A stretch of 64,000 bases of DNA, taken from Planktomarina temperata RCA23 (lineage in GTDB: Bacteria > Pseudomonadota > Alphaproteobacteria > Rhodobacterales > Rhodobacteraceae). Location of the stretch: contig NZ_CP003984.1 in the NCBI RefSeq assembly GCF_000738435.1, positions 1,860,001 to 1,924,000 of the forward strand, given 5' to 3'. Within the stretch, counting starts at the first letter, position 1. Each line of letters begins with the position of its first letter. Below the pieces are notes generated by a model, which was not told the origin of the DNA, did not search any database, and saw only the letters and a list, made by a program, of their open reading frames with translations. The position numbers and the translations under genes are program-made. Below, piece after piece: positions 25,148 through 39,720 of this stretch.

Positions 25148-25453
25148 ATGGCAGATGTAATTGTAGTGTATTGGCGTGACATCCCGGCCCAAGTCATTGT
25201 CGGCAAGGGGCGCAAAGCGTCAAAAGTGCAACTGCCAGAGCGTTTTGAGCAGGCCATTGACCGCGCAGCCATGAAGATCGGCGCCGAAGATACGGATGCC
25301 TACCTGGCCGAATGGCGCAAGGCCGAGCCCTATGTGGTTGATGGCGACCAGGCCGAAGTGGCCCATTCAGAAGCCGCCCGTCTCGACGCAGAATATGATC
25401 AAGAAAAAATCAAGCAGCTCATAGCCAATGATGGCTGGGCCATACAGGCCTAG
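25148..25453 (+). CDS. Virulence_fact (PF13769-like) domain protein
   Basis: A 101-residue soluble protein beginning VIVVYWRDIPAQVIVGKGRK. It matches small alphaproteobacterial proteins annotated as virulence factor; the name is historical and no virulence role is implied. Their usual place is directly before a methylenetetrahydrofolate reductase and a pterin-binding methyltransferase, exactly as here, so a role in that one-carbon pathway is more likely. GTGAGGA lies upstream of the start. Confidence 0.8.
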   Translation: MADVIVVYWRDIPAQVIVGKGRKASKVQLPERFEQAIDRAAMKIGAEDTDAYLAEWRKAEPYVVDGDQAEVAHSEAARLDAEYDQEKIKQLIANDGWAIQA

Positions 25454-25490
25454 ATCCCTCAAGTTACCAGTTGAAAAGAAGGAGCGGCCC

Positions 25491-26417
25491 ATGGCCCTAC
25501 TCAATTTTGGATCCAAAGACACGGCAGGTGTCGAGATCAACCCGCAGGTCGAAAGCTTTCTAAAAGATTACTCCATTGAGGTCATGCCACGCACGGCGGA
25601 GAAAATTGAAGATTTCCGCGAGATTCTCCCGGCCGCAACGCGCGTGTACATCGCGCATATTGAGGGCACACCCATTGAAGATATGGTGGCCACTGCCAAG
25701 CGCATCGCGGGCGAAGGTTTTGCCGTTATGCCGCATTTCCCCGCAAGGATCATCAAAGATGAGGCCACATTGCGCAATTGGATCGCCATGTATCAGGACG
25801 AAGCGGGCGTTGAACAAGCCTTGCTCCTCGCGGGCGGTGTGACGCAGCCCCACGGCGATTACGACAGCTCCATGCAATTGCTTGAAAGCGGTGCCTTTGG
25901 CGACGCGGGTTTCAAGCGTTTGCATGTGGCGGGGCATCCTGAGGGCAACAAAGATATTGATCCCGATGGCTCCATGACCAATGTGGACGCGGCCCTGCGC
26001 TGGAAGCAGGCATTTTCAGACACATCCGACGCAGATATGGCCATTGCAACGCAGTTTTGTTTTGAAGCGGCCCCGGTGATCGACTGGGCCAATGATCTTG
26101 CGGCCAATGGCATCACCCTGCCGATACATATCGGTGTGGCCGGCCCGGCAAAACTGCAAACCTTGATCAAATTTTCGATTGCCTGTGGTGTGGGCGCCTC
26201 TCTGCGGGTGCTCCAACGCCGCGCTAAAGATCTCACCAAATTGCTTTTGCCCTTCACCCCCAATGAGTTCTTGAGCGATCTTGCGGCCCATAAAGTCGCT
26301 AATCCGGATTTTGGCATTTCACATGTCCATTTCTTTCCGCTTGGCGGGATAAAAACCAATGCCAATTGGGCCATCGAAAACGGCGGCACCTCCGCCGCTC
26401 CAGCTTCTCAATCCTAA
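25491..26417 (+). CDS. Methylenetetrahydrofolate reductase-like protein
   Basis: A 308-residue FAD TIM-barrel protein of the MetF family, interconverting methylene- and methyl-tetrahydrofolate. Visible blocks are FREILPAATRVYIAHIEGTP, MPHFPARII, LLLAGGVTQPHGDY, HVAGHPEGN and TQFCFEAAPVIDW. It differs from housekeeping MetF in its divergent N-terminus. ATG 25491 has AAGGAG upstream, so the longer frame is rejected. It lies between the Virulence_fact gene and a pterin-binding methyltransferase; together they may oxidise methyl groups from methylated compounds (inference). Confidence 0.88.
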   Translation: MALLNFGSKDTAGVEINPQVESFLKDYSIEVMPRTAEKIEDFREILPAATRVYIAHIEGTPIEDMVATAKRIAGEGFAVMPHFPARIIKDEATLRNWIAMYQDEAGVEQALLLAGGVTQPHGDYDSSMQLLESGAFGDAGFKRLHVAGHPEGNKDIDPDGSMTNVDAALRWKQAFSDTSDADMAIATQFCFEAAPVIDWANDLAANGITLPIHIGVAGPAKLQTLIKFSIACGVGASLRVLQRRAKDLTKLLLPFTPNEFLSDLAAHKVANPDFGISHVHFFPLGGIKTNANWAIENGGTSAAPASQS

Positions 26418-26429
26418 GGATTTCCAAAT

Positions 26430-27494
26430 ATGACACGCACTGTTGTAGAGTCAAAAACCAAGACAGCCATCATCGGCTTTGATGAGCCCTTCTGCGTGAT
26501 TGGTGAGCGCATTAATCCAACAGGCCGCAAGATCTTAAATGCAGAGCTGGAAGCGGGAGATTACTCTCGTGTGGAAGCCGATGCCATTGCCCAAACGGCC
26601 GCGGGAGCCACGATCTTGGACATCAACTCTGGAGCTGTCTTTTCAAACAAAATGGCCGAAGATCCGCGCTATGCGGATAATAACTTTGTCGAGCCAACCT
26701 TGATGCGCGCCTTGATCGAACGGGTGCAAGCTGTGGTTGACACACCCCTGTGCATCGACAGCTCGGTGCCAGGCGCTTTGGAAAATGGCCTGGCCGCCGC
26801 CGAAGGCCGCCCACTTCTCAACTCCGTAACAGGGGAGGAAGAGCGCCTCGAAATGGTGCTGCCATTGGTGAAAAAATACAATGTGCCTGTGGTGGCCATT
26901 TCCAATGATGACACCGGCATCTCCGAGGACCCTGACGTGCGCTTTGCCGTTGCAAAAAAGATCGTTGAGCGCGCCGCTGACTTTGGCATTCCGGCCCATG
27001 ACATCGTTGTTGACCCGCTGGTGATGCCCGTTGGCGCAATGGGATCTGCTGGCTTGCAAGTCTTCACTCTGGTCCGGCGTTTGCGTGAGGAATTGGGTGT
27101 GAACACCACCTGTGGTGCATCGAATATCTCCTTCGGCCTGCCCAATCGTCATGGCATCAACAATGCCTTCCTGCCGATGGCCATGGCCGCGGGCATGACC
27201 TCAGCCATCATGAACCCGGTCGCCTTGCCGGTCAATCAAACCAAGATTGCCGAAAAGAAAGCCGCGATTGCCGCGGCGGGCATCATCTTGCCAGATGGTA
27301 TGGATGATGAAACTTTCGTCACCCTCTTTGGCATGGGGTCCATGTCGAGCAAACCCGGCAAAGAAATGGAAGCCATCCGGGCCGCCAATTTCTTGATGGA
27401 TTGCGACCCAAGCGGGGCCGCTTGGATCAATTTCAACAAAATTCCTGGCAGTGATGCGGGTGGCCGCGGTGGCCGCAAGCGCCGTCGGGGTTAA
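26430..27494 (+). CDS. Methyltetrahydrofolate:corrinoid methyltransferase-like protein
   Basis: A 354-residue protein with a pterin-binding TIM barrel related to the MetH folate domain, AcsE and MtgA-type enzymes. Motifs are GERINPTGRK, ILDINSGA, CIDSSVPGAL, NSVTGEEER and CGASNISFGLPNRHG. It ends in a basic GGRGGRKRRRG tail. It should move methyl groups between tetrahydrofolate and a corrinoid protein, but no corrinoid protein gene is adjacent, so the partner must lie elsewhere. It follows the MetF-like gene by 12 bases and a strong terminator ends the operon. Confidence 0.85.
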   Translation: MTRTVVESKTKTAIIGFDEPFCVIGERINPTGRKILNAELEAGDYSRVEADAIAQTAAGATILDINSGAVFSNKMAEDPRYADNNFVEPTLMRALIERVQAVVDTPLCIDSSVPGALENGLAAAEGRPLLNSVTGEEERLEMVLPLVKKYNVPVVAISNDDTGISEDPDVRFAVAKKIVERAADFGIPAHDIVVDPLVMPVGAMGSAGLQVFTLVRRLREELGVNTTCGASNISFGLPNRHGINNAFLPMAMAAGMTSAIMNPVALPVNQTKIAEKKAAIAAAGIILPDGMDDETFVTLFGMGSMSSKPGKEMEAIRAANFLMDCDPSGAAWINFNKIPGSDAGGRGGRKRRRG

Positions 27495-27536: not shown

Positions 27537-28307
27537 TTAAAGCTGGCGCGCTTGGGCGACATTTTGCGCCAGCGCCGATTGCAACGTCACCACATCAGCG
27601 GCAACCCCAAGAAAACACCCGCCCTGTGCGATAAAGCGCTGCTGATCTTCTGGATCGAAACAAATCGTGCCAGCGCAGAGCCCTGCCGCTTTGATATCCT
27701 TCATCCCCTGCGCAATAACCTCCAAGACCTCCGGGTGGTTCAAGTCACCCAAATGCCCCATATCCGCGCTCAAATCCGCCGGGCCAATAAAGATGCAGTC
27801 AATGCCTGGCACTTGGGCGATTTGCGCAATATTGGCCATAGCGGCGCGCGTTTCGACCTGCACCATGACGCAAATCTGATCATTGGCTGTTTTGGCGTAA
27901 TCTGGAATGGCATTGTAGCCACTGGCCCGCGCCAGGGCATAGCCCACCCCGCGCCGCCCCTCGGGTGCATATTTACAGGCCTCCACCACTTGCTGCGCTT
28001 GCTCTGCGGTTTCCACCATAGGCACCAAAACGCTTTGCGCCCCGATGTCCAAAACCTGTTTCAAAATCCAATCTTCGCCCTGCGGCACACGCACCACAGC
28101 ACTGGCCCCGCGCCCGTCCAATGCGCGCAGTTGCGCCGCCATCAACGGCAAGTCATTCGGCCCGTGTTCCCCGTCAATCAAACACCAATCATAGCCGGCT
28201 GCCCCGGCCATCTCCGCCACCGCCGGATTGCACAGGCCTAGCCAAATGCCAATTTGCAACTCTCGGCGCGCGAGGGCGGCTTTCAATTTGTTTTTGGGTG
28301 CGGGCAT
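27537..28307 (-). CDS. HpcH/HpaI-family class II aldolase
   Basis: A 256-residue metal-dependent TIM-barrel aldolase cleaving or forming 4-hydroxy-2-oxo acids to pyruvate and an aldehyde. Motifs are IGIWLGLCNPAVAEM, DWCLIDGEHGPND, VLVPMVETAEQAQ, VMVQVETRAAM and FIGPADLSADMG, with the metal-binding Glu and Asp. Its substrate is not fixed by sequence (2-keto-3-deoxy-sugar acids and hydroxyketoheptanedioate are both possible). AAGGAT precedes ATG 28307. It stands alone, divergent from glk. Confidence 0.87.
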   Translation of the reverse strand: MPAPKNKLKAALARRELQIGIWLGLCNPAVAEMAGAAGYDWCLIDGEHGPNDLPLMAAQLRALDGRGASAVVRVPQGEDWILKQVLDIGAQSVLVPMVETAEQAQQVVEACKYAPEGRRGVGYALARASGYNAIPDYAKTANDQICVMVQVETRAAMANIAQIAQVPGIDCIFIGPADLSADMGHLGDLNHPEVLEVIAQGMKDIKAAGLCAGTICFDPEDQQRFIAQGGCFLGVAADVVTLQSALAQNVAQARQL

Positions 28308-30658: not shown

Positions 30659-33600
30659 TCAAATATCCAGCTTCAGCACCCCGCCCGCCTCGGCTGCTCG
30701 GCTTTGGCACAGGATGACAGTGGTTTCGCGCTGCGCCGCCGAGAGCACAAAGTCACGGTGCTCCACCTCACCAGATAGCACCGTGCATTTGCACACACCG
30801 CAGAGCCCATCAGCACATTTCACATCCACCGGTATCCCTGCGGCGATCAGCGCATCACTGGCCGATTGCGTGGCCGTGACTGGAATTTTTTGCCCAGTCG
30901 CCCGCTCAATCTCAAAGGGATGGTTTTCCCATTCCGGCAGCTCCGGCACGGTAAAGAACTCAGCATGCAGCGCCGCATCCGGGTAACCAATAGAGCGGGC
31001 ATGGTCTAAAATGGCGCTCATATAAGCATCTGGCCCACATACATAAATATGCGTCCCGGCTTCATAGGGCGGCACTTCTCGAGCAATATCAAGGCGCGTG
31101 CCCTGATCGGAGTAATACCGGCTGACCCGATCGGCCCAAGACAAGCCGTCAAATGCGCCATCAAAGGCAGCCTTTGACTTTTGACTGGCTGAATACATCA
31201 GGCGAAACGCTCCCCCTTTGCGATGAAGCTCATGGGCAAAGGCCAGCATCGGCGTCACACCGATACCGCCGCCAAAGAGTAAGGACAGCTTGGCCGAAGG
31301 TTCCAATTCAAAATGATTGATAGGTTTGGAGACAAAAACGCGCCGGCCGGGCTCAAAAATTCGGTGCATCAATTGCGAGCCCCCCCGCCCCTCGGGCTCC
31401 TGCAGCACTGCGATTTCATAACAGCTGCGATCGGCAGGATCGCCGCACATGGAATATTGCCGCAAAAATTCAGGCGCGACAACAATGTCCAAATGCGCCC
31501 CCGCCGTCCATCGAGGCAAATCCGCGCCATCCACCGCCACAAGCCTGTATTTCTTGACCGCACCCGGCCAATCTTCCACCTCAGCGACCGACATTTGAAT
31601 GACCGGCGCTTCGTGATCGTTTTGGTAAAGATGCAAGTGATCTCGCGCACCTGTGGCAGATTTTTCTTGATAGACCTCTGCTGTGATCATGGCTTGATAG
31701 GCCTCAATTCCAGCTTCGCGGTCCATCGGGGCCGGATATGGGAAGGGATGGGGCGCCAAGGGCGCGGGATACACCGCCAAAGTCTGGTCGTCGTACTTCA
31801 AATCCAAATCTTTTTGCAAGGATCGAGCATTGATCGGATGGGCTGTGGGGCGATATCCCCCCGCCTCGGTCAATTCCAAATCCCACCACCATTTTTTGAC
31901 CGGGTTCAGCTCACCATGACCGGCCATATCATCCATTTTTGCCAAAACTGGCGCCATCTGTGGCACGTTCATTGCCGCCCAGCGGAAAGGCGCTTCGGCA
32001 AACAACCCCTCAAGGTTCCAAGGGCAGGTTTTCATGCAGCGTCCACACATAGCGCCGCCCGGGGTGCTGATACGATAGCTGGCACATTTTTGACTGTCAG
32101 ATTTCCAAATTTCATAGCCGTTGAACATCAATTTTGGCCCAGCCGTGATTGCCCCTGAGGGGCATTCGCGCGCGCATTTATTGCAGCTTTGGCAAAAGCG
32201 CTGCAGGCCAAAATCTATTGGCTTATCATGGGACAGCGGCAGGCTCGTGGTCACCACACCAGATTTCAAACGTGGACCCAGAAAGGGGTTAAGGATCACC
32301 TCGCCGATACGGCTGACCTCCCCCAAACCGGAGAGCAAAAGCAAGGGCGGTTGCAACACCTCACCATCCATCACCGTATGCGCCTTGGCCATATAGCCCA
32401 AGTTTCGGATATGTTGCGCAATGATGCCGCCCAGAAGGGAAAACCGCAGATAGGCCCGCATGGATTGCGCCACGGAGATCCAATCGTCACCAGAAGCGCC
32501 TTCCATCGTTTCAAACCCTTGATCAACAATCATGCTGATGGCCTGATCATGGGGCGACAGGATGGGCGCGCCGCGGGCGTCATGGGAATACCACGACCAT
32601 TCAGGGCAGCGCGACAGGCCGGTGGCATCAATGCCCAGAAAATAACTGGCCCCTTTGATGTTATCGGCTGCCACCTCGGGCGCAATCTGTTGCGCATGGG
32701 CGGCCGGCTCCCCGTCCTGCAAAAGCACAAAGGCACCGAGCAGCCGGCGTTGCGCAGAGCTGGGCGCAGCCTTGCGCGCGTAGTGACCCGCCGTGGCGCC
32801 CTTTTGCAGCGCCGGTCCCATATCGCCAAATTGCGCGCGAGCGAACATATCCGTGCGTTTGGGCACACGGGCCACATTCGGCTCATCAATATAGGTCGTG
32901 GGGGTCTCAACGCGCTTTAGGGTTTCAAACGGATGGGCACCCTGGGCGTATTCTCGCCGCGCATAGGGATCATGAGAGCGGCGGCTCGCGCCGCCATGGC
33001 GGCCCAAAGTCCAATCCAAGCCCATAAGGGCGGATTGCGGTTGATCGGCGGCCAAAGGCAAATCGGGTGCCAGCGCCATATCGGTGGTGACGGCGGCCAA
33101 ACCAAATCTTTGACCCAACCAAGGATGGGTGATTTCATCACCCGCCACCTGCGCCAAGCCAGCCTTCACCGCCAAGCGGGCCAAATCCACATCACAGGTG
33201 GTGGCCGAATGCGCCCGCGCACTGTACCCCAAAATTCGAATATAATTGGCCAAAACCGTGGCGGTTTCTGTCCCCAGAACGGCCGCGCGTTCGGCCTGCG
33301 CGTCTTGCACCCAATCGCAGCCGTTCTCGCCAGGTCTCGGATCCCGCCGATAGGCCACCAAAAAGACCAAAGCATATGTATGATGCTCCATTGGCTGGGG
33401 CTTGGCCGTCATGCTTTCTCTCAAATCCGCCATGATCACATCAATGCCAGCGGCCAAAGTCTTGGTTTGGCGGGTTTGCAGAGCATGGGACAAGCGGTCA
33501 ATTTGCGGGTTGCGCCGCGCAGCTGCCAACCTGTCCGCCTGGCCCAAAGGCGCTATGCCAACCATGGAGATATCATTAAAATAGGCGAAGGATTTGAGGT

Positions 33601-33859
33601 GACGGGAGCGCTCGAGACGGTCCTCTGGAATTTCCGAGGGCGCTTGATTTTGCGGGCCATCGCGCACCGCATCCATCATGGCTTGAAATTCCGCCATCGC
33701 CGGCACCAAGCTGGCACTGCCTGCGGGCCGCTGAAAGGACAGATCCGGCCATGGGGCAAGCCCATCAAGATCGGGCATATGCCCGCTACGTTTCAAAATT
33801 TCCGTAGGAAAGCGCCCCATATGCACCGGGCGATTGCGATCTGAAAACAGCTTAGCCAT
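30659..33859 (-). CDS. Cobalamin-dependent reductive dehalogenase fused to an NAD(P)H reductase
   Basis: A 1066-residue self-sufficient RdhA-type enzyme. Residues to about 690 form the B12/iron-sulfur half: C556, C559, C562, C566 and C592, C605, C608, C612 fit two [4Fe-4S] clusters. Y470, K532 and R596 have the spacing (62 and 64) of the catalytic Y426/K488/R552 recalled for NpRdhA. Residues 760-975 form a phthalate-dioxygenase-reductase-like module with RQYS at 800-803 (FMN), GGGIGVTP at 863-870 and CGPDAYM at 941-947 (NAD(P)H). The C-terminus is a plant-type [2Fe-2S] domain (C1015, C1020, C1023, C1051). There is no Tat signal and no rdhB gene, so it is cytoplasmic and catabolic, as in BhbA and NpRdhA, with a halogenated phenol as likely substrate. 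The start (GAGGA upstream) overlaps the XdhC gene by 8 bases. Confidence 0.9.
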   Translation of the reverse strand: MAKLFSDRNRPVHMGRFPTEILKRSGHMPDLDGLAPWPDLSFQRPAGSASLVPAMAEFQAMMDAVRDGPQNQAPSEIPEDRLERSRHLKSFAYFNDISMVGIAPLGQADRLAAARRNPQIDRLSHALQTRQTKTLAAGIDVIMADLRESMTAKPQPMEHHTYALVFLVAYRRDPRPGENGCDWVQDAQAERAAVLGTETATVLANYIRILGYSARAHSATTCDVDLARLAVKAGLAQVAGDEITHPWLGQRFGLAAVTTDMALAPDLPLAADQPQSALMGLDWTLGRHGGASRRSHDPYARREYAQGAHPFETLKRVETPTTYIDEPNVARVPKRTDMFARAQFGDMGPALQKGATAGHYARKAAPSSAQRRLLGAFVLLQDGEPAAHAQQIAPEVAADNIKGASYFLGIDATGLSRCPEWSWYSHDARGAPILSPHDQAISMIVDQGFETMEGASGDDWISVAQSMRAYLRFSLLGGIIAQHIRNLGYMAKAHTVMDGEVLQPPLLLLSGLGEVSRIGEVILNPFLGPRLKSGVVTTSLPLSHDKPIDFGLQRFCQSCNKCARECPSGAITAGPKLMFNGYEIWKSDSQKCASYRISTPGGAMCGRCMKTCPWNLEGLFAEAPFRWAAMNVPQMAPVLAKMDDMAGHGELNPVKKWWWDLELTEAGGYRPTAHPINARSLQKDLDLKYDDQTLAVYPAPLAPHPFPYPAPMDREAGIEAYQAMITAEVYQEKSATGARDHLHLYQNDHEAPVIQMSVAEVEDWPGAVKKYRLVAVDGADLPRWTAGAHLDIVVAPEFLRQYSMCGDPADRSCYEIAVLQEPEGRGGSQLMHRIFEPGRRVFVSKPINHFELEPSAKLSLLFGGGIGVTPMLAFAHELHRKGGAFRLMYSASQKSKAAFDGAFDGLSWADRVSRYYSDQGTRLDIAREVPPYEAGTHIYVCGPDAYMSAILDHARSIGYPDAALHAEFFTVPELPEWENHPFEIERATGQKIPVTATQSASDALIAAGIPVDVKCADGLCGVCKCTVLSGEVEHRDFVLSAAQRETTVILCQSRAAEAGGVLKLDI

Positions 33860-34859
33860 GGGCGCGTCCTCTGAGTTTTGCTGTCATTGCCGCCAAAATG
33901 GACAGGGCAATCTCTGCCGGTGTGCGGCTGCCGATGTCGAGCCCCACCGGCCCTTGAATTCGGGCAAACTGCGCCGCGCTCACCCCCAGCTCCAGCATGG
34001 ACTGGCGACGCTTGGCATGGGTGCGGGTGGATCCCAATGCCCCGATATAGAATACATCGCTTGCAACTGCGTGTTGCAACGCGGGCGTGTCCATTTTGGG
34101 ATCATGCGTCAGAGTCACAAAGGCTGTGCGCCCATCGAGCGCCAGTCTGGCCAAAGCCTCCTCTGGCCAGTCGACAATCACCTCATGCCCATCAAAACGG
34201 GCCGGGCTTGCGAAACTGTCGCGCGGATCAATGATGGTCACGAGATAGCCCGCCATCTGCGCCATTGGGGCCAAATATTGCGCAATATGCACCGCGCCCA
34301 TGATCACCAAGCGCAGGGGCACGGTTTGCACATAGGTGAAGACATCCCCCGCAAGCCCGACACCGGCCTCAAAAACGGCAAGGTCAGTTTGCGCCAAAAT
34401 CAATTCGCGCTGCCAGCTGGACAAGTCCAACCTCACTGCAATAGGCTGTCGGGCTGATTGCGCTTCAACAAGACGCTCCAGCATGGCCGGATCCACACCC
34501 TGACCCTGCCCCACGGGCTCGACCACCAGTTCAATCTCACCGCCACAGGCCAGCCCGACAGCGAAAGCATCCGCATCGGCAACCCCGTAGCGCAGGCGTC
34601 GGCACTGCCCCGCCTCCAATGCCTCCAGCGCCTCCAAGACCACCGCGCCTTCAACGCAGCCGCCTGAGACAGACCCGTGAAAGCTGCCATCTGCGCAAAT
34701 CAACATCTGAGCGCCAACGGGCCGAGGCGCAGATCCCCATGTGGCCATAACCGTCGCCAGCGCCACAGGCTGCCCCTGCCGGTGCAGCCGCAAGGCCATT
34801 GCTGTCATCTCTTCTGCGACTGCCATTTCAACGGCCCCATTGTTTTCCAAATACCACAT
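33852..34859 (-). CDS. XdhC/CoxI-family protein
   Basis: A 335-residue protein with an N-terminal XdhC domain (TWGSAPRPVGAQM, GSVSGGCVEGAV with C68) and a C-terminal Rossmann domain (LRLVIMGAVHIAQYLA, GALGSTRTHAKR). XdhC binds molybdenum cofactor and promotes its sulfuration for insertion into xanthine-dehydrogenase-type enzymes. No xdhAB or coxLMS gene is nearby; instead its stop overlaps the reductive dehalogenase start by 8 bases (ATGGCTAA). Either it serves a distant molybdoenzyme or it acts on the dehalogenase in an undescribed way. The start could also be ATG 34826. Confidence 0.85.
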   Translation of the reverse strand: MWYLENNGAVEMAVAEEMTAMALRLHRQGQPVALATVMATWGSAPRPVGAQMLICADGSFHGSVSGGCVEGAVVLEALEALEAGQCRRLRYGVADADAFAVGLACGGEIELVVEPVGQGQGVDPAMLERLVEAQSARQPIAVRLDLSSWQRELILAQTDLAVFEAGVGLAGDVFTYVQTVPLRLVIMGAVHIAQYLAPMAQMAGYLVTIIDPRDSFASPARFDGHEVIVDWPEEALARLALDGRTAFVTLTHDPKMDTPALQHAVASDVFYIGALGSTRTHAKRRQSMLELGVSAAQFARIQGPVGLDIGSRTPAEIALSILAAMTAKLRGRAHG

Positions 34860-36141: not shown

Positions 36142-36291
36142 TTTAGAGGTTCTGACCGCCCCCCATGGCGCCCAGCCTATGGCACCGAAGCGCCATGGCT
36201 ATAAAATTACAGATTTGTTCCAAAACCTTATTGCCTAATGGTAAAGAGCCATGCACATTCACCATCTCAAAATACAAGACAGGAGGTCCAG
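36142..36291 (+). promoter_or_regulatory. Upstream region of the SDR operon
   Basis: About 150 bases between miniature element B and the SDR start, with no gene. A near-perfect AGGAGGT lies 5 bases before ATG 36292. No unambiguous -35/-10 pair or operator could be picked by eye. The whole 35831-36291 interval therefore holds only element B and promoter DNA. Confidence 0.4.
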
Positions 36292-37032
36292 ATGGGACGA
36301 CTTTCAGGAAAACGCGCTTTGGTAACCGCCGCAGGACAAGGCATTGGCAGAGCCACCGCTTTGGCCATGGCCGCTGAAGGCGCCAAAGTCTTTGCCACAG
36401 ACATTAATCCTGAGACTTTGGCTGAGGTGCAAAGTGCCTGCACGGGGCAAATGGAAACCTATGTGCTCGACGTGCTTGACGCGACCTCAACCCGTGAGGG
36501 CATCGACCGCGCGCAGCCAGATATTTTGTTTAATGGCGCGGGCTTTGTGCATCACGGGACCATAATCGATGCCACGGAAGATGAATGGGATTTTGCATTC
36601 AACCTCAATGTCCGCTCGATGATGCGCACCATCCAAGCCGCGCTACCGGGTATGCTGGAACGTGGGGGCGGCTCGATTATCAATATGTCCTCCGCCTGTT
36701 CCTCTATTATTGGCGCTCCCAATCGCTTTATCTACGGCACAACCAAAGCGGCCGTGATCGGCCTGACCAAATCCGTGGCCATGGATTACATCAAACAGGG
36801 GATTCGCTGTAATGCAATTTGTCCCGGCACTGTTGAAAGCCCCTCTCTACATGACCGTCTGCGGGCCACTGGAGATGAGGTGCAAGCCATGAAAGACTTT
36901 GTTGCCCGCCAACCCATGGGCCGCATTGGCACAGCCGAAGAAATAGCAGCCCTTGCAGTTTACCTAGGTTCGGATGAAAGTGCCTTCACAACCGCCACAA
37001 CACAGGTTATTGATGGCGGCTGGTCAAACTAA
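36292..37032 (+). CDS. SDR-family dehydrogenase, probably acting on a 2-keto-3-deoxy sugar acid
   Basis: A 246-residue classical short-chain dehydrogenase: [12 protein letters not shown] cofactor loop, NGAG, and catalytic S134, Y148 and K152. It resembles 2-keto-3-deoxy-L-fuconate dehydrogenases. The next two genes encode an IlvD/Edd dehydratase and an FAH-family hydrolase, so the likely reaction is oxidation of a 2-keto-3-deoxy-aldonate to the 2,4-diketo compound (inference from the known L-fucose/L-rhamnose non-phosphorylative route). ATG 36292 follows AGGAGGT. Confidence 0.87.
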
Positions 37033-37073
37033 TCACTGGCGACCAAAATTTTAACTTAACGAGGACGATCCGC

Positions 37074-38861
37074 GTGTCAGATATCAAACCGAAATTGCGA
37101 TCCCAACAGTGGTTCAACAATCCCGACAATCAAGAGATGACAGCGCTCTATCTCGAACGCTATCTCAACTACGGCCTGACACGCCACGAGCTACAATCGG
37201 GCAAGCCTATCATTGGCATTGCCCAGACCGGCAGCGACCTTAGCCCCTGCAATCGCCACCATATTGAACTGTCCAAACGGGTGCGTGATGGGGTCATTGC
37301 CGCCGGCGGCACGGTGATTGAAATTCCGGTGCATCCCATTCAGGAAACCGGCAAACGCCCAACGGCCATGTTGGACAGAAACCTGGCCTATCTGTCTTTG
37401 GTGGAAACCCTATTTGGCTATCCGATTGATGGGGTTGTGCTGAATATCGGCTGTGACAAAACCACGCCGGCTTTGTTGATGGCGGCCGCGACCGTCAATA
37501 TCCCTGCCATTGCCCTATCCGTTGGCCCAATGCTCAACGGGTGGTTCGGCGGCAAGCGCACGGGCTCTGGCACGATCGTTTGGAAGGCCCGCGAGATGCA
37601 GGCCGCAGGTGAAATCGATGATGACGGCTTTATGGATATGGTGGCCTCCTCAACGCCTTCTGTTGGCTACTGCAACTCCATGGGCACCGCCACGACGATG
37701 AACTCTCTGGCCGAGGGGCTTGGTATGCAATTGCCCGGCTCCGCCGCCATCCCAGCACCCTATCGCGAGCGCGGGCAGATCAGCTATGAAACCGGGCTGC
37801 GGATTGTCGATATGGTGCATGAGGATTTGCGACCTGACCGAATCATGACCCGCGAAGCCTTTGAGAACGCCATTGTCATCAATTCAGCCATCGGCGGCTC
37901 GACCAATGCGCCAATTCACCTGAACGGCATCGCCAAACATCTCGGCGTGGCCTTGAACAATGATGATTGGCAAAAACTCGGCCATAGGGTGCCGCTTTTG
38001 GTCAACCTGCAACCGGCGGGCGAATATCTTGGCGAGGATTACCACCGGGCCGGTGGCGTGCCGGCGGTGATCGGCGAATTGCTCGCCGCAGGGCTGCTGC
38101 CGCATCCGGATGTCCTAACTGCCAATGGCAAAACCATTGCTGAGAATTGCCAAGATTGCCGCAGCACCAATACCGATGTGATCAAGCAAGTCACAGCGCC
38201 ACTGGTTGATGCTGCCGGCTTTATCAACTTGAAAGGCAATCTGTTCGACAGCGCGATCATGAAAACTTCGGTGATCTCACAAGAGTTTCGCAGGCGCTAC
38301 CTGTCTGATCCGGCCAACCCAAATTGCTTTGAAGGGCGCGCCATCGTCTTCGACGGGCCGGAACACTTCCACCGCGGCATTGATGATCCAAGTCTGAACA
38401 TCGATGAGAACTGCGTCCTAATCATGCGCGGCGCCGGACCAATTGGCTATCCCGGCGGGGCGGAGGTCGTAAATATGCGCCCGCCGTCCTATCTTTTGAC
38501 CAAGGGCATCACCTCCCTGCCCTGTTTGGGCGATGGGCGGCAATCGGGCACCTCTGGATCACCTTCAATCCTAAACGCCTCACCGGAAGCGGCAGATGGT
38601 GGCGGCTTGGGTCTGGTGCAAACTGGCGATATCATCCGGATTGATCTGAATGCCTGCACTGCCGATATGCTGGTTGAACCGGCCGAGCTTGAGCGCCGCA
38701 GGGCCGCTCTTGGCACGCGTCCCTTCACCCCTGACAGCCAAACCCCTTGGCAAGAATTGTTCCGCGAAAAAGTCAGACCCTTCTCAGAAGGCATGACTCT
38801 AGACGGGGCGCATGAATATCAAGACATCGCGCGCAAACATATGCCGCGTGACAACCACTAG
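37074..38861 (+). CDS. IlvD/Edd-family sugar-acid dehydratase
   Basis: A 595-residue iron-sulfur dehydratase. Motifs are [40 protein letters not shown] and [10 protein letters not shown], containing the likely cluster cysteines, and [12 protein letters not shown] near the C-terminus. The branch is closer to aldonate (xylonate, arabinonate, fuconate) dehydratases than to IlvD. It starts with GTG 8 bases after GAGGA. Flanked by an SDR and an FAH-family hydrolase, it should make the 2-keto-3-deoxy acid that the SDR oxidises. Confidence 0.87.
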
Positions 38862-38871
38862 GAGTTTTTTT

Positions 38872-39720
38872 ATGAAATTAGTCCGCTATGGCGACACTGG
38901 CGCAGAGCGCCCCGGTTTGATCGATCCCGAAGGTGTGCTGCGCGACCTTTCGGATCATGTGACAGATATCAACGCAAGCGTGCTCGGCGATGCGGCCTTG
39001 GCCCGCCTGCGGGCGCTGGACCCAAGCGCCTTGCCTGCGGTCAACGGGTCACCGCGCCTAGGCCCAGTTGTGGGCGATATCGGCAAGTTTCTCTGCATCG
39101 GTTTGAATTATTCCGACCACGCCGCAGAAACCGGAGCCGCCATCCCTGAACATCCCATTTTGTTTTTCAAAGCCAATTCCGCCATCGTGGGCGCCAATGA
39201 TGATGTGGTAATGCCGCGCGGCTCGACCCATACCGATTGGGAAGTGGAACTTGGCGTAGTGATTGGCACAGCGGCAAAATATGTCAGCGAAGACGAGGCT
39301 TTGAACCATGTGGCCGGCTATTGCATCGTCAACGATGTGTCAGAGCGGCACTTTCAAACGCAGCTGACCGGGCAATGGACCAAGGGCAAAAGCTGTGACA
39401 CCTTCGGCCCCACCGGCCCCTATCTCGTCACGCGCGATGAAATTGCCGATCCGCAGGCTCTCGACATGTCATTGGATGTGAACGGCAAACGCATGCAAAC
39501 CGGCAATACGGCGACCATGATCTTCACGGTCGCGCAAATTATCAGCCATCTGTCCCAGCTCATGACGCTCCACCCCGGAGATGTCATCACCACCGGAACC
39601 CCTCCGGGCGTGGGGATGGGCATGAAACCGGAGCCGGTCTACCTCAAGCCCGGCGATGTGATGGAGCTTGAAATCTCTGGCCTGGGCAAGCAGCGCCAAA
39701 CCGTGCGCCAAGACGCATAA
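38872..39720 (+). CDS. Fumarylacetoacetate hydrolase-family protein
   Basis: A 282-residue metal-dependent C-C bond hydrolase: GLNYSDHAAETGA, DWEVELGVVIG and VNDVSERHFQ carry the Glu/Asp metal ligands, with KGKSCDTFGPTGPYLV and GTPPGVGMG. It is similar to 2,4-diketo-3-deoxy-L-fuconate hydrolase and to proteins annotated as ureidoglycolate lyase. By context it should split the 2,4-diketo acid made by the SDR into pyruvate and a hydroxyacid. ATG 38872 has GGAG upstream; the longer frame overlaps the dehydratase gene. Confidence 0.87.
   Translation: MKLVRYGDTGAERPGLIDPEGVLRDLSDHVTDINASVLGDAALARLRALDPSALPAVNGSPRLGPVVGDIGKFLCIGLNYSDHAAETGAAIPEHPILFFKANSAIVGANDDVVMPRGSTHTDWEVELGVVIGTAAKYVSEDEALNHVAGYCIVNDVSERHFQTQLTGQWTKGKSCDTFGPTGPYLVTRDEIADPQALDMSLDVNGKRMQTGNTATMIFTVAQIISHLSQLMTLHPGDVITTGTPPGVGMGMKPEPVYLKPGDVMELEISGLGKQRQTVRQDA

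Follow-up and report, generated by a model that had tools for sequence, protein, structure and literature searches.

A complete catabolic reductive dehalogenase fused to a reductase module, very probably active, in Planktomarina temperata RCA23

Can a marine bacterium cleave carbon–halogen bonds with one self-contained polypeptide that draws on ordinary NAD(P)H? The question arises from a 64,000-nucleotide stretch of Planktomarina temperata RCA23 (Rhodobacteraceae; NZ_CP003984.1, positions 1,860,001 to 1,924,000), here called the window, in which a sequence-only reading had placed a self-sufficient, cobalamin-dependent reductive dehalogenase (RDase) gene, rdhA, at 30659–33859. These coordinates are right, and the strand, which had been left unstated, is minus: translation from 33859 to 30659 gives a single 1066-residue open reading frame (ORF), and the plus-strand frame across the same interval contains several stops. 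Judged by its sequence, the gene is a complete catabolic RdhA fused to a phthalate-dioxygenase-reductase (PDOR)-like module, a class already known, and the enzyme is complete, conserved, and very probably active. We hold it highly likely that the product is a cytoplasmic, self-sufficient catabolic RDase driven by NAD(P)H and acting on bromo- and iodophenols. Its layout is given here relative to NpRdhA of Nitratireductor pacificus (4RAS, 6ZXX) and BhbA of Comamonas sp. 7D-2.

30659..33859, minus strand: the rdhA–reductase fusion gene, 1066 amino acids, whole ORF with stop; TIGR02486 above cut-off, NpRdhA match at E 7e-150
32720..33859, minus strand: N-terminal region, residues 1–380, aligned to the vestigial (non-cobalamin) duplicate of NpRdhA and including pocket residue F339; border approximate
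32210..32692, minus strand: cobalamin-binding core, residues ~390–550, with S466, M467, Y470, and K532, placed by sequence alignment; borders approximate
32450..32452, minus strand: Y470, aligned with NpRdhA Y426, the proposed proton donor
32264..32266, minus strand: K532, aligned with NpRdhA K488
32015..32194, minus strand: two [4Fe–4S] motifs and R596, residues 556–615 (PF12838/PF13484), conserved with NpRdhA and BhbA
32072..32074, minus strand: R596, aligned with NpRdhA R552
30950..31603, minus strand: PDOR-like flavin and NAD(P)H reductase module, residues 753–970, from sequence and fold matches
30659..30913, minus strand: plant-type [2Fe–2S] domain, residues 983–1066 plus stop (PF00111; C1015, C1020, C1023, C1051)

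Family, domain order, residues, selection, and the presence of pathway genes were all read directly from the data. The RdhA core scores 201.4 bits against the NCBIfam model TIGR02486 (cut-off 160.35; best stretch, residues 433–649), and PF12838 and PF13484 (residues 556–615) and PF00111 (residues 988–1055) lie above their Pfam cut-offs. Phthalate dioxygenase reductase and CYP116B reductase modules run in the order flavin, NAD(P)H, [2Fe–2S]. The C terminus of the window protein (residues ~753–1062) matches both phthalate dioxygenase reductase (2PIA) and CYP116B P450 reductase domains (6KBH, 6LAA) in sequence and in fold, although those reductases work for oxygenases and not for dehalogenases. 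The two-cluster core and the reductase with its [2Fe–2S] domain, proposed earlier for one chain, are therefore both present in it. Among solved structures the best sequence match is NpRdhA (4RAS), whose N-terminal duplicate, "vestigial" in the wording of PMC10463259, aligns with residues 3–111 and from 159 onward in phmmer, and in the MAFFT alignment too.

The absence of a Tat (twin-arginine translocation) signal and of rdhB, also claimed from sequence, holds within the limits of the scans: a simple motif search of residues 1–60 gave no RR, and a hydropathy search found no 55- to 140-residue ORF with at least two hydrophobic segments starting at 26–39.5 kb. Respiratory RDases have both a Tat signal and an RdhB partner. 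By contrast, the window protein combines the marks of catabolic RDases, namely a two-cluster RdhA core, a duplicated vestigial N-terminal domain, no Tat signal or RdhB, and the catalytic Tyr/Lys/Arg, with the fused PDOR-like [2Fe–2S]-containing domain that marks the RdhA–PDOR subfamily. Might it instead be epoxyqueuosine reductase (QueG) or some other class III B12 reductase, and no dehalogenase at all? The QueG model does match, but its 24.1 bits fall far short of the equivalog cut-off (200), and the protein passes that of TIGR02486; the NpRdhA-type substrate residues and the fused reductase also speak against QueG, and we regard this identity as extremely improbable.

The assignment as a dehalogenase is carried further by the active site, examined in a MAFFT alignment of the window protein, NpRdhA, BhbA, and five other full-length fusions. 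Relative to NpRdhA, F291 (F339), S422 (S466), M423 (M467), Y426 (Y470), K488 (K532), and R552 (R596) are kept, and the spacing Y470-62-K532-64-R596 is identical to Y426-62-K488-64-R552, exactly as the earlier reading gave it. All eight [4Fe–4S] cysteines (C556, C559, C562, C566, C592, C605, C608, and C612) are conserved throughout, and the four [2Fe–2S] cysteines are conserved across the fusions, NpRdhA lacking that module. Across the window protein and 29 relatives, catalytic residues and cluster cysteines are invariant. The alignment with NpRdhA and BhbA proposed as a check thus leaves every one of these residues in place. NpRdhA shares the duplicated core and the two [4Fe–4S] clusters; it differs in having no fused reductase and in its identity of 41.2% over 684 residues. 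BhbA, for which we took the protein encoded on plasmid pBHB (NC_021077.1), is a full-length fusion with 48.8% identity over 1061 residues and the same catalytic residues and cysteines. It differs in that its gene is plasmid-borne, beside transhydrogenase and transporter genes.

Several observations weigh against so straightforward an assignment. The Pfam model for RdhA, PF13486, is absent from the protein's Pfam matches at E up to 1, and a search of the organism's own genome gave no match at the rdhA locus, its sole match, below cut-off, being a second RDase. The AlphaFold2 model (30 sequences; mean predicted local distance difference test score [pLDDT] 71.2, predicted template-modelling score 0.68) is poor in the cofactor and cluster region, with residues 551–593 below a pLDDT of 50, and gives no usable pocket geometry. 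Six pocket positions are unlike those of NpRdhA: F290 is M338, K307 is A355, F310 is Y360, P311 is A361, A419 is V463, and N452 is V496. Oxygen tolerance is not assured; a different Roseobacter RDase, Ros_A3X954, is described in PMC13101508 as inactivated by oxygen exposure. Finally, the genes scanned at 21.5–45.7 kb include no clear aromatic-degradation neighbor, and an HpaI-type aldolase at 27537–28307 falls below the HpaI cut-off (300.5 versus 368.8).

Two of these points can be placed more closely. Foldseek ranks 14 NpRdhA chains first, followed by P450 and phthalate reductases, with the NpRdhA fold match covering ~750 columns at modest model quality. The structural check proposed earlier thus succeeded in part: the predicted structure bears out the order of the folds, though not the pocket. 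As for the pocket, the positions surrounding the substrate of NpRdhA are those given in PMC7565698, which describes A419 as bordering the second-bromine pocket and K307 as forming a salt bridge with a benzoate carboxylate in a nonproductive pose at the pocket entrance. Given these roles, the chemistry should be the same, but the preference among substrates may not be, and the exact substrate of the window protein may not be that of NpRdhA. At positions 307, 310, 311, 419, and 452, BhbA has S, S, V, S, and A, against A, Y, A, V, and V in the window protein.

How would such an enzyme work? Each catalytic step, the cofactor loading, the substrate class, and the biological use are projected from homologues, with mechanism and substrate class taken from accounts in PMC7565698 and PMC10463259. 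A hydride would pass from NAD(P)H to the flavin of the C-terminal module, and single electrons would then travel via the [2Fe–2S] domain and the two [4Fe–4S] clusters to base-off cobalamin. With S466, K532, and R596 holding the phenol oxygen, a 2-bromo- or 2-iodophenol would ligate cobalt through its ortho-halogen. The carbon–halogen bond would be cleaved with a proton from Y470, tuned by K532, and halide and the dehalogenated phenol would be released. A product such as 4-hydroxybenzoate could feed the route through PobA and protocatechuate 3,4-dioxygenase encoded in the genome, which is why the likely use would be growth on, or detoxification of, natural bromophenols.

JtRdhA of Jhaorihella thermophila, compared by its description in PMC10463259, is likewise a marine RdhA–PDOR fusion without a Tat signal. 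Its identity to NpRdhA is given there as ~39% (41.2% for the window protein), and Y426, K488, and R552 are kept in both. JtRdhA has been assayed, whereas the window protein is known from sequence alone. As reported in that paper, JtRdhA is NADPH-dependent, works in air, and turns over bromo and iodo phenols, with chloro analogues just inhibiting; the best substrates in its Table 1 are 3,5-dibromo-4-hydroxybenzoate and 3-bromo-4-hydroxyphenylacetate, with an iodinated analogue at 84%. Of the phenols first suggested as substrates, the brominated ones fit this precedent. Since JtRdhA left the chlorinated compounds tested in PMC10463259 unconverted, chlorophenols are less likely candidates than their bromo and iodo counterparts.

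A more restricted role has the same precedent: the enzyme might chiefly supply PobA by debrominating or deiodinating hydroxybenzoates, such as 3,5-dihalo-4-hydroxybenzoate, or acids derived from tyrosine. Halogenated 4-hydroxybenzoate and 4-hydroxyphenylacetate are the top substrates of JtRdhA in PMC10463259, and the P. temperata genome encodes both PobA (4-hydroxybenzoate hydroxylase; 690.8 bits, cut-off 538.7) and PcaH (protocatechuate 3,4-dioxygenase beta; 329.6, cut-off 296.4), which exceed their cut-offs in 1 and 2, respectively, of 14 control genomes. In addition, a Nitratireductor OM-1 plasmid fusion 48.1% identical to the window protein clusters with pobA and ring-cleavage genes, and a PaaZ gene lies upstream of rdhA on the same strand in genome G026 (locus L031). 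Yet pobA is ~1.2 Mb from rdhA, with pcaH also elsewhere in the genome, and the carboxylate-binding K307 is replaced by alanine in the window protein and in the three marine relatives compared. We therefore give this narrower role a little less than an even chance. Bromo- and iodophenols as a class remain our preferred substrates. For the cofactor, an unbroken 1223-residue CobN ORF in the same genome (1590 bits, cut-off 822.05; above cut-off in 5 of 14 controls) suggests that the organism makes its own cobalamin, CobN being the sole gene of the pathway searched. Rfam gave no match in the window at the gathering threshold, and so no cobalamin riboswitch at that threshold.

Is this the only RDase of the genome? 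The search revealed another, elsewhere in the genome.

G000:C1:2333544–2334782 (L047:8544–9782), outside the window, plus strand: second RDase, 412 amino acids, no reductase; TIGR02486 173.8 bits, over cut-off

This protein carries the cluster motifs printed for Ros_A3X954, CDICTKCADACP and CAICMRVCP, which the window protein lacks. Ros_A3X954, from Roseobacter sp. MED193, is described in PMC13101508 as an assayed marine debrominase and is, like the window protein, a Roseobacter-group RDase; its printed motifs (residues 283–345) match the second RDase and not the window protein. From the motif positions and the ~8 Fe per protein given there, we infer that Ros_A3X954 is short and without a reductase. 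The same motifs rule it out as the MED193 orthologue of the window rdhA, and MED193 also encodes a full-length fusion 64% identical to the window protein. At E up to 1e-60, 100 family genomes gave matches to the second RDase in 18, a figure that counts its own genome and two with partial matches.

The fusion gene is also under constraint. Ratios of nonsynonymous to synonymous substitution rates (dN/dS) for rdhA against three relatives are 0.126, 0.144, and 0.077, indicating purifying selection. Among named relatives, Rhodobacteraceae bacterium IMCC1909 (98%) and metagenome-assembled genomes titled Planktomarina stand closest, which agrees with the earlier description of a self-sufficient, catabolic-type fusion in a marine alphaproteobacterium. 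Of 20 genomes of the genus, 15 carry a full-length homologue, a count that takes in the window's own genome but not G003, G006, and G018, whose copies are partial or split. Beyond the genus, 7 of 17 family genomes have one, and the 24 genomes from the rest of the class have none; three matches there, in two genomes, lack the reductase. In a wider draw, 77 of 198 family genomes have full-length homologues, meaning at least 1050 residues; 10 of the 87 matching genomes, with no full-length match in one place, were excluded from the 77. The idea that such enzymes are confined to only a few bacteria fails for the gene, although few have been assayed. According to PMC13101508, homologues of bhbA are widespread in the Roseobacter clade. 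Plasmid copies also exist: 8 of 188 matching plasmid records cover at least 80% of the query, including Comamonas 7D-2 pBHB, Ruegeria TM1040, and Jannaschia M317.

In a FastTree phylogeny of 102 rdhA rows (29 of 99 inner branches open), the window copy sits within a nine-row clade of its own genus, and other copies from the genus fall in several distant places. Loci L057 and L097, for which the ORF picker gave no full rdhA ORF, were omitted here and from the rdhA positions in the neighbor table. This scatter suggests transfer, or old duplications followed by losses. Remnant and split copies were also seen within the genus. L134:5392–5792 (G010) holds an rdhA remnant, with weak N- and C-terminal matches side by side, beside an FAD ring hydroxylase gene. 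At L043:7785–11007 (G018), rdhA is in two overlapping frames, split near the second [4Fe–4S] motif; either a genuine frameshift or a fault in the assembly could explain this.

The gene directly upstream of rdhA raises a further question, that of a partner.

33852..34859, minus strand: XdhC/CoxI-like molybdenum-hydroxylase maturation factor, 335 amino acids, overlapping the rdhA start by 8 bases

A functional tie between the two, either through an operon or pathway shared with a molybdenum hydroxylase or through a part for XdhC in RdhA maturation, would be in keeping with this overlap, with the adjacency of XdhC and rdhA in 10 of 20 genus genomes (all with window-type rdhA by identity), and with purifying selection on XdhC (dN/dS 0.133 and 0.195). 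Of 80 named loci, moreover, 22 (mostly from Ruegeria) have molybdenum-hydroxylase genes no more than 8 kb from rdhA: in 20, L053 among them, these follow rdhA directly, and L074 and L094 have them elsewhere within that distance. Such genes also adjoin rdhA in G012, whose copy belongs to another rdhA lineage of the genus. Against such a tie, XdhC closes a cox-type run, with AAA- and VWA-protein genes, in G005, G007, G017, and G018, and cox-type genes are absent at the rdhA–xdhC place in the window, G001, G002, and G004. The large subunit of the run has the motif AYRGAGR in both loci tested (L025, L026), which we take to be that of form II CoxL; ORF-picker artefacts replaced CoxM of L026 with an ORF from the opposite strand and split CoxL of L027 into three ORFs. 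Furthermore, 8 of the 10 sampled family genomes that lack full-length rdhA have XdhC homologues (52–56% identical), which in G022 adjoin cox-type genes (L135), and further XdhC-like genes, hence other clients, may remain elsewhere in the genome. Because the cox run precedes XdhC in four genomes and XdhC occurs without rdhA, the pairing is probably the remnant of a form II cox-type operon. Purifying selection nevertheless weighs against a pure remnant: XdhC probably serves some client enzyme and is not a dead gene. On synteny, and despite that selection, we judge XdhC unlikely as a partner of RdhA, and a functional tie of either kind quite improbable. No paper pairing an RDase with XdhC was found in the literature searched.

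Molybdenum hydroxylases are common in this family. Those beside rdhA, with FAD, 2Fe–2S, and Mo subunits, were seen in Ruegeria-type loci and, divergent, in G012 (L033:5410–12376); a general link with rdhA was not built upon, the association falling mainly in one Ruegeria clade of the tree. In G008, an FAD ring hydroxylase follows rdhA. In the window, the next gene upstream of XdhC is hydroxyisobutyrate-dehydrogenase-like. Beyond it, on the opposite strand, are sugar-acid genes: the plus-strand interval 36238–39720 encodes a short-chain dehydrogenase/reductase, a dihydroxy-acid dehydratase family protein, and a 2,4-didehydro-3-deoxy-L-rhamnonate hydrolase-like protein (the last below cut-off), probably a nonphosphorylated sugar-acid pathway unrelated to rdhA. 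On the other side, also on the plus strand, 25148–27494 encodes a PF13769 small protein, a weak methylenetetrahydrofolate reductase match, and a methyltetrahydrofolate:corrinoid methyltransferase that clusters with ORFs in L048, L049, and L050; the run is possibly another corrinoid-linked one-carbon module.

Sister loci offer a different lead to the natural substrate. Among 1574 ORFs in 106 rdhA loci, there were 7 sulfatase matches, 6 of them upstream on the rdhA strand; in L054, L122, and L123, which belong to separate parts of the rdhA tree (some forks modestly supported), the sulfatase directly abuts rdhA (0–10 bp). The second rdhA locus of genus genome G005 (L028:3378–11856) is a same-strand run of a DctM-like permease of the tripartite ATP-independent periplasmic (TRAP) type, an arylsulfatase-like gene, an arylsulfotransferase-like gene, and rdhA, and it looks like a unit for uptake, desulfation, and debromination of sulfated bromophenols. 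The natural substrate of this same enzyme class might accordingly be a sulfated algal bromophenol resembling lanosol sulfate, from which a sulfatase frees the phenol before RdhA debrominates it. Sulfated bromophenols occur in red algae, with lanosol-4,7-disulfate given as a red-algal product in PMC9322897, and three sulfatases encoded by the P. temperata genome share 63, 53, and 52% identity with the L028 enzyme. However, none lies within 8 kb of the window rdhA or among the neighbors scanned. The survey also drew its hidden Markov model seeds from the rdhA loci themselves, had no random-region control, and counted some genomes twice, and 99 of the 106 loci gave no match. The sulfatase link is therefore only a lead, and a sulfated substrate seems possible but rather unlikely.

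Several details thus add to a class already known: six pocket differences, an XdhC gene that is probably an operon remnant, a second, short RDase, and sister loci with sulfatases hinting at sulfated bromophenols. No paper tying Planktomarina to reductive dehalogenation was found in the literature searched, and the main text of PMC10675870, on Planktomarina, contains none of the terms dehalogen, halogen, bromo, cobalamin, or B12. According to that paper, temperate to polar oceans harbor the RCA group widely and in abundance. Across this group, the fusion, the short RDase, and the sulfatases might even act in oxic surface water as a distributed pathway by which sulfated algal bromophenols are taken up, desulfated, and debrominated. 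We think this unlikely and put it forward as speculation; if true, aerobic reductive dehalogenation would be a routine branch of the surface-ocean bromine cycle. More generally, one polypeptide that links ordinary NAD(P)H to carbon–halogen cleavage would be useful for bioremediation. Should the enzyme prove active, the aerobic loss of bromine from natural bromophenols could be a common process in seawater and no mere curiosity.

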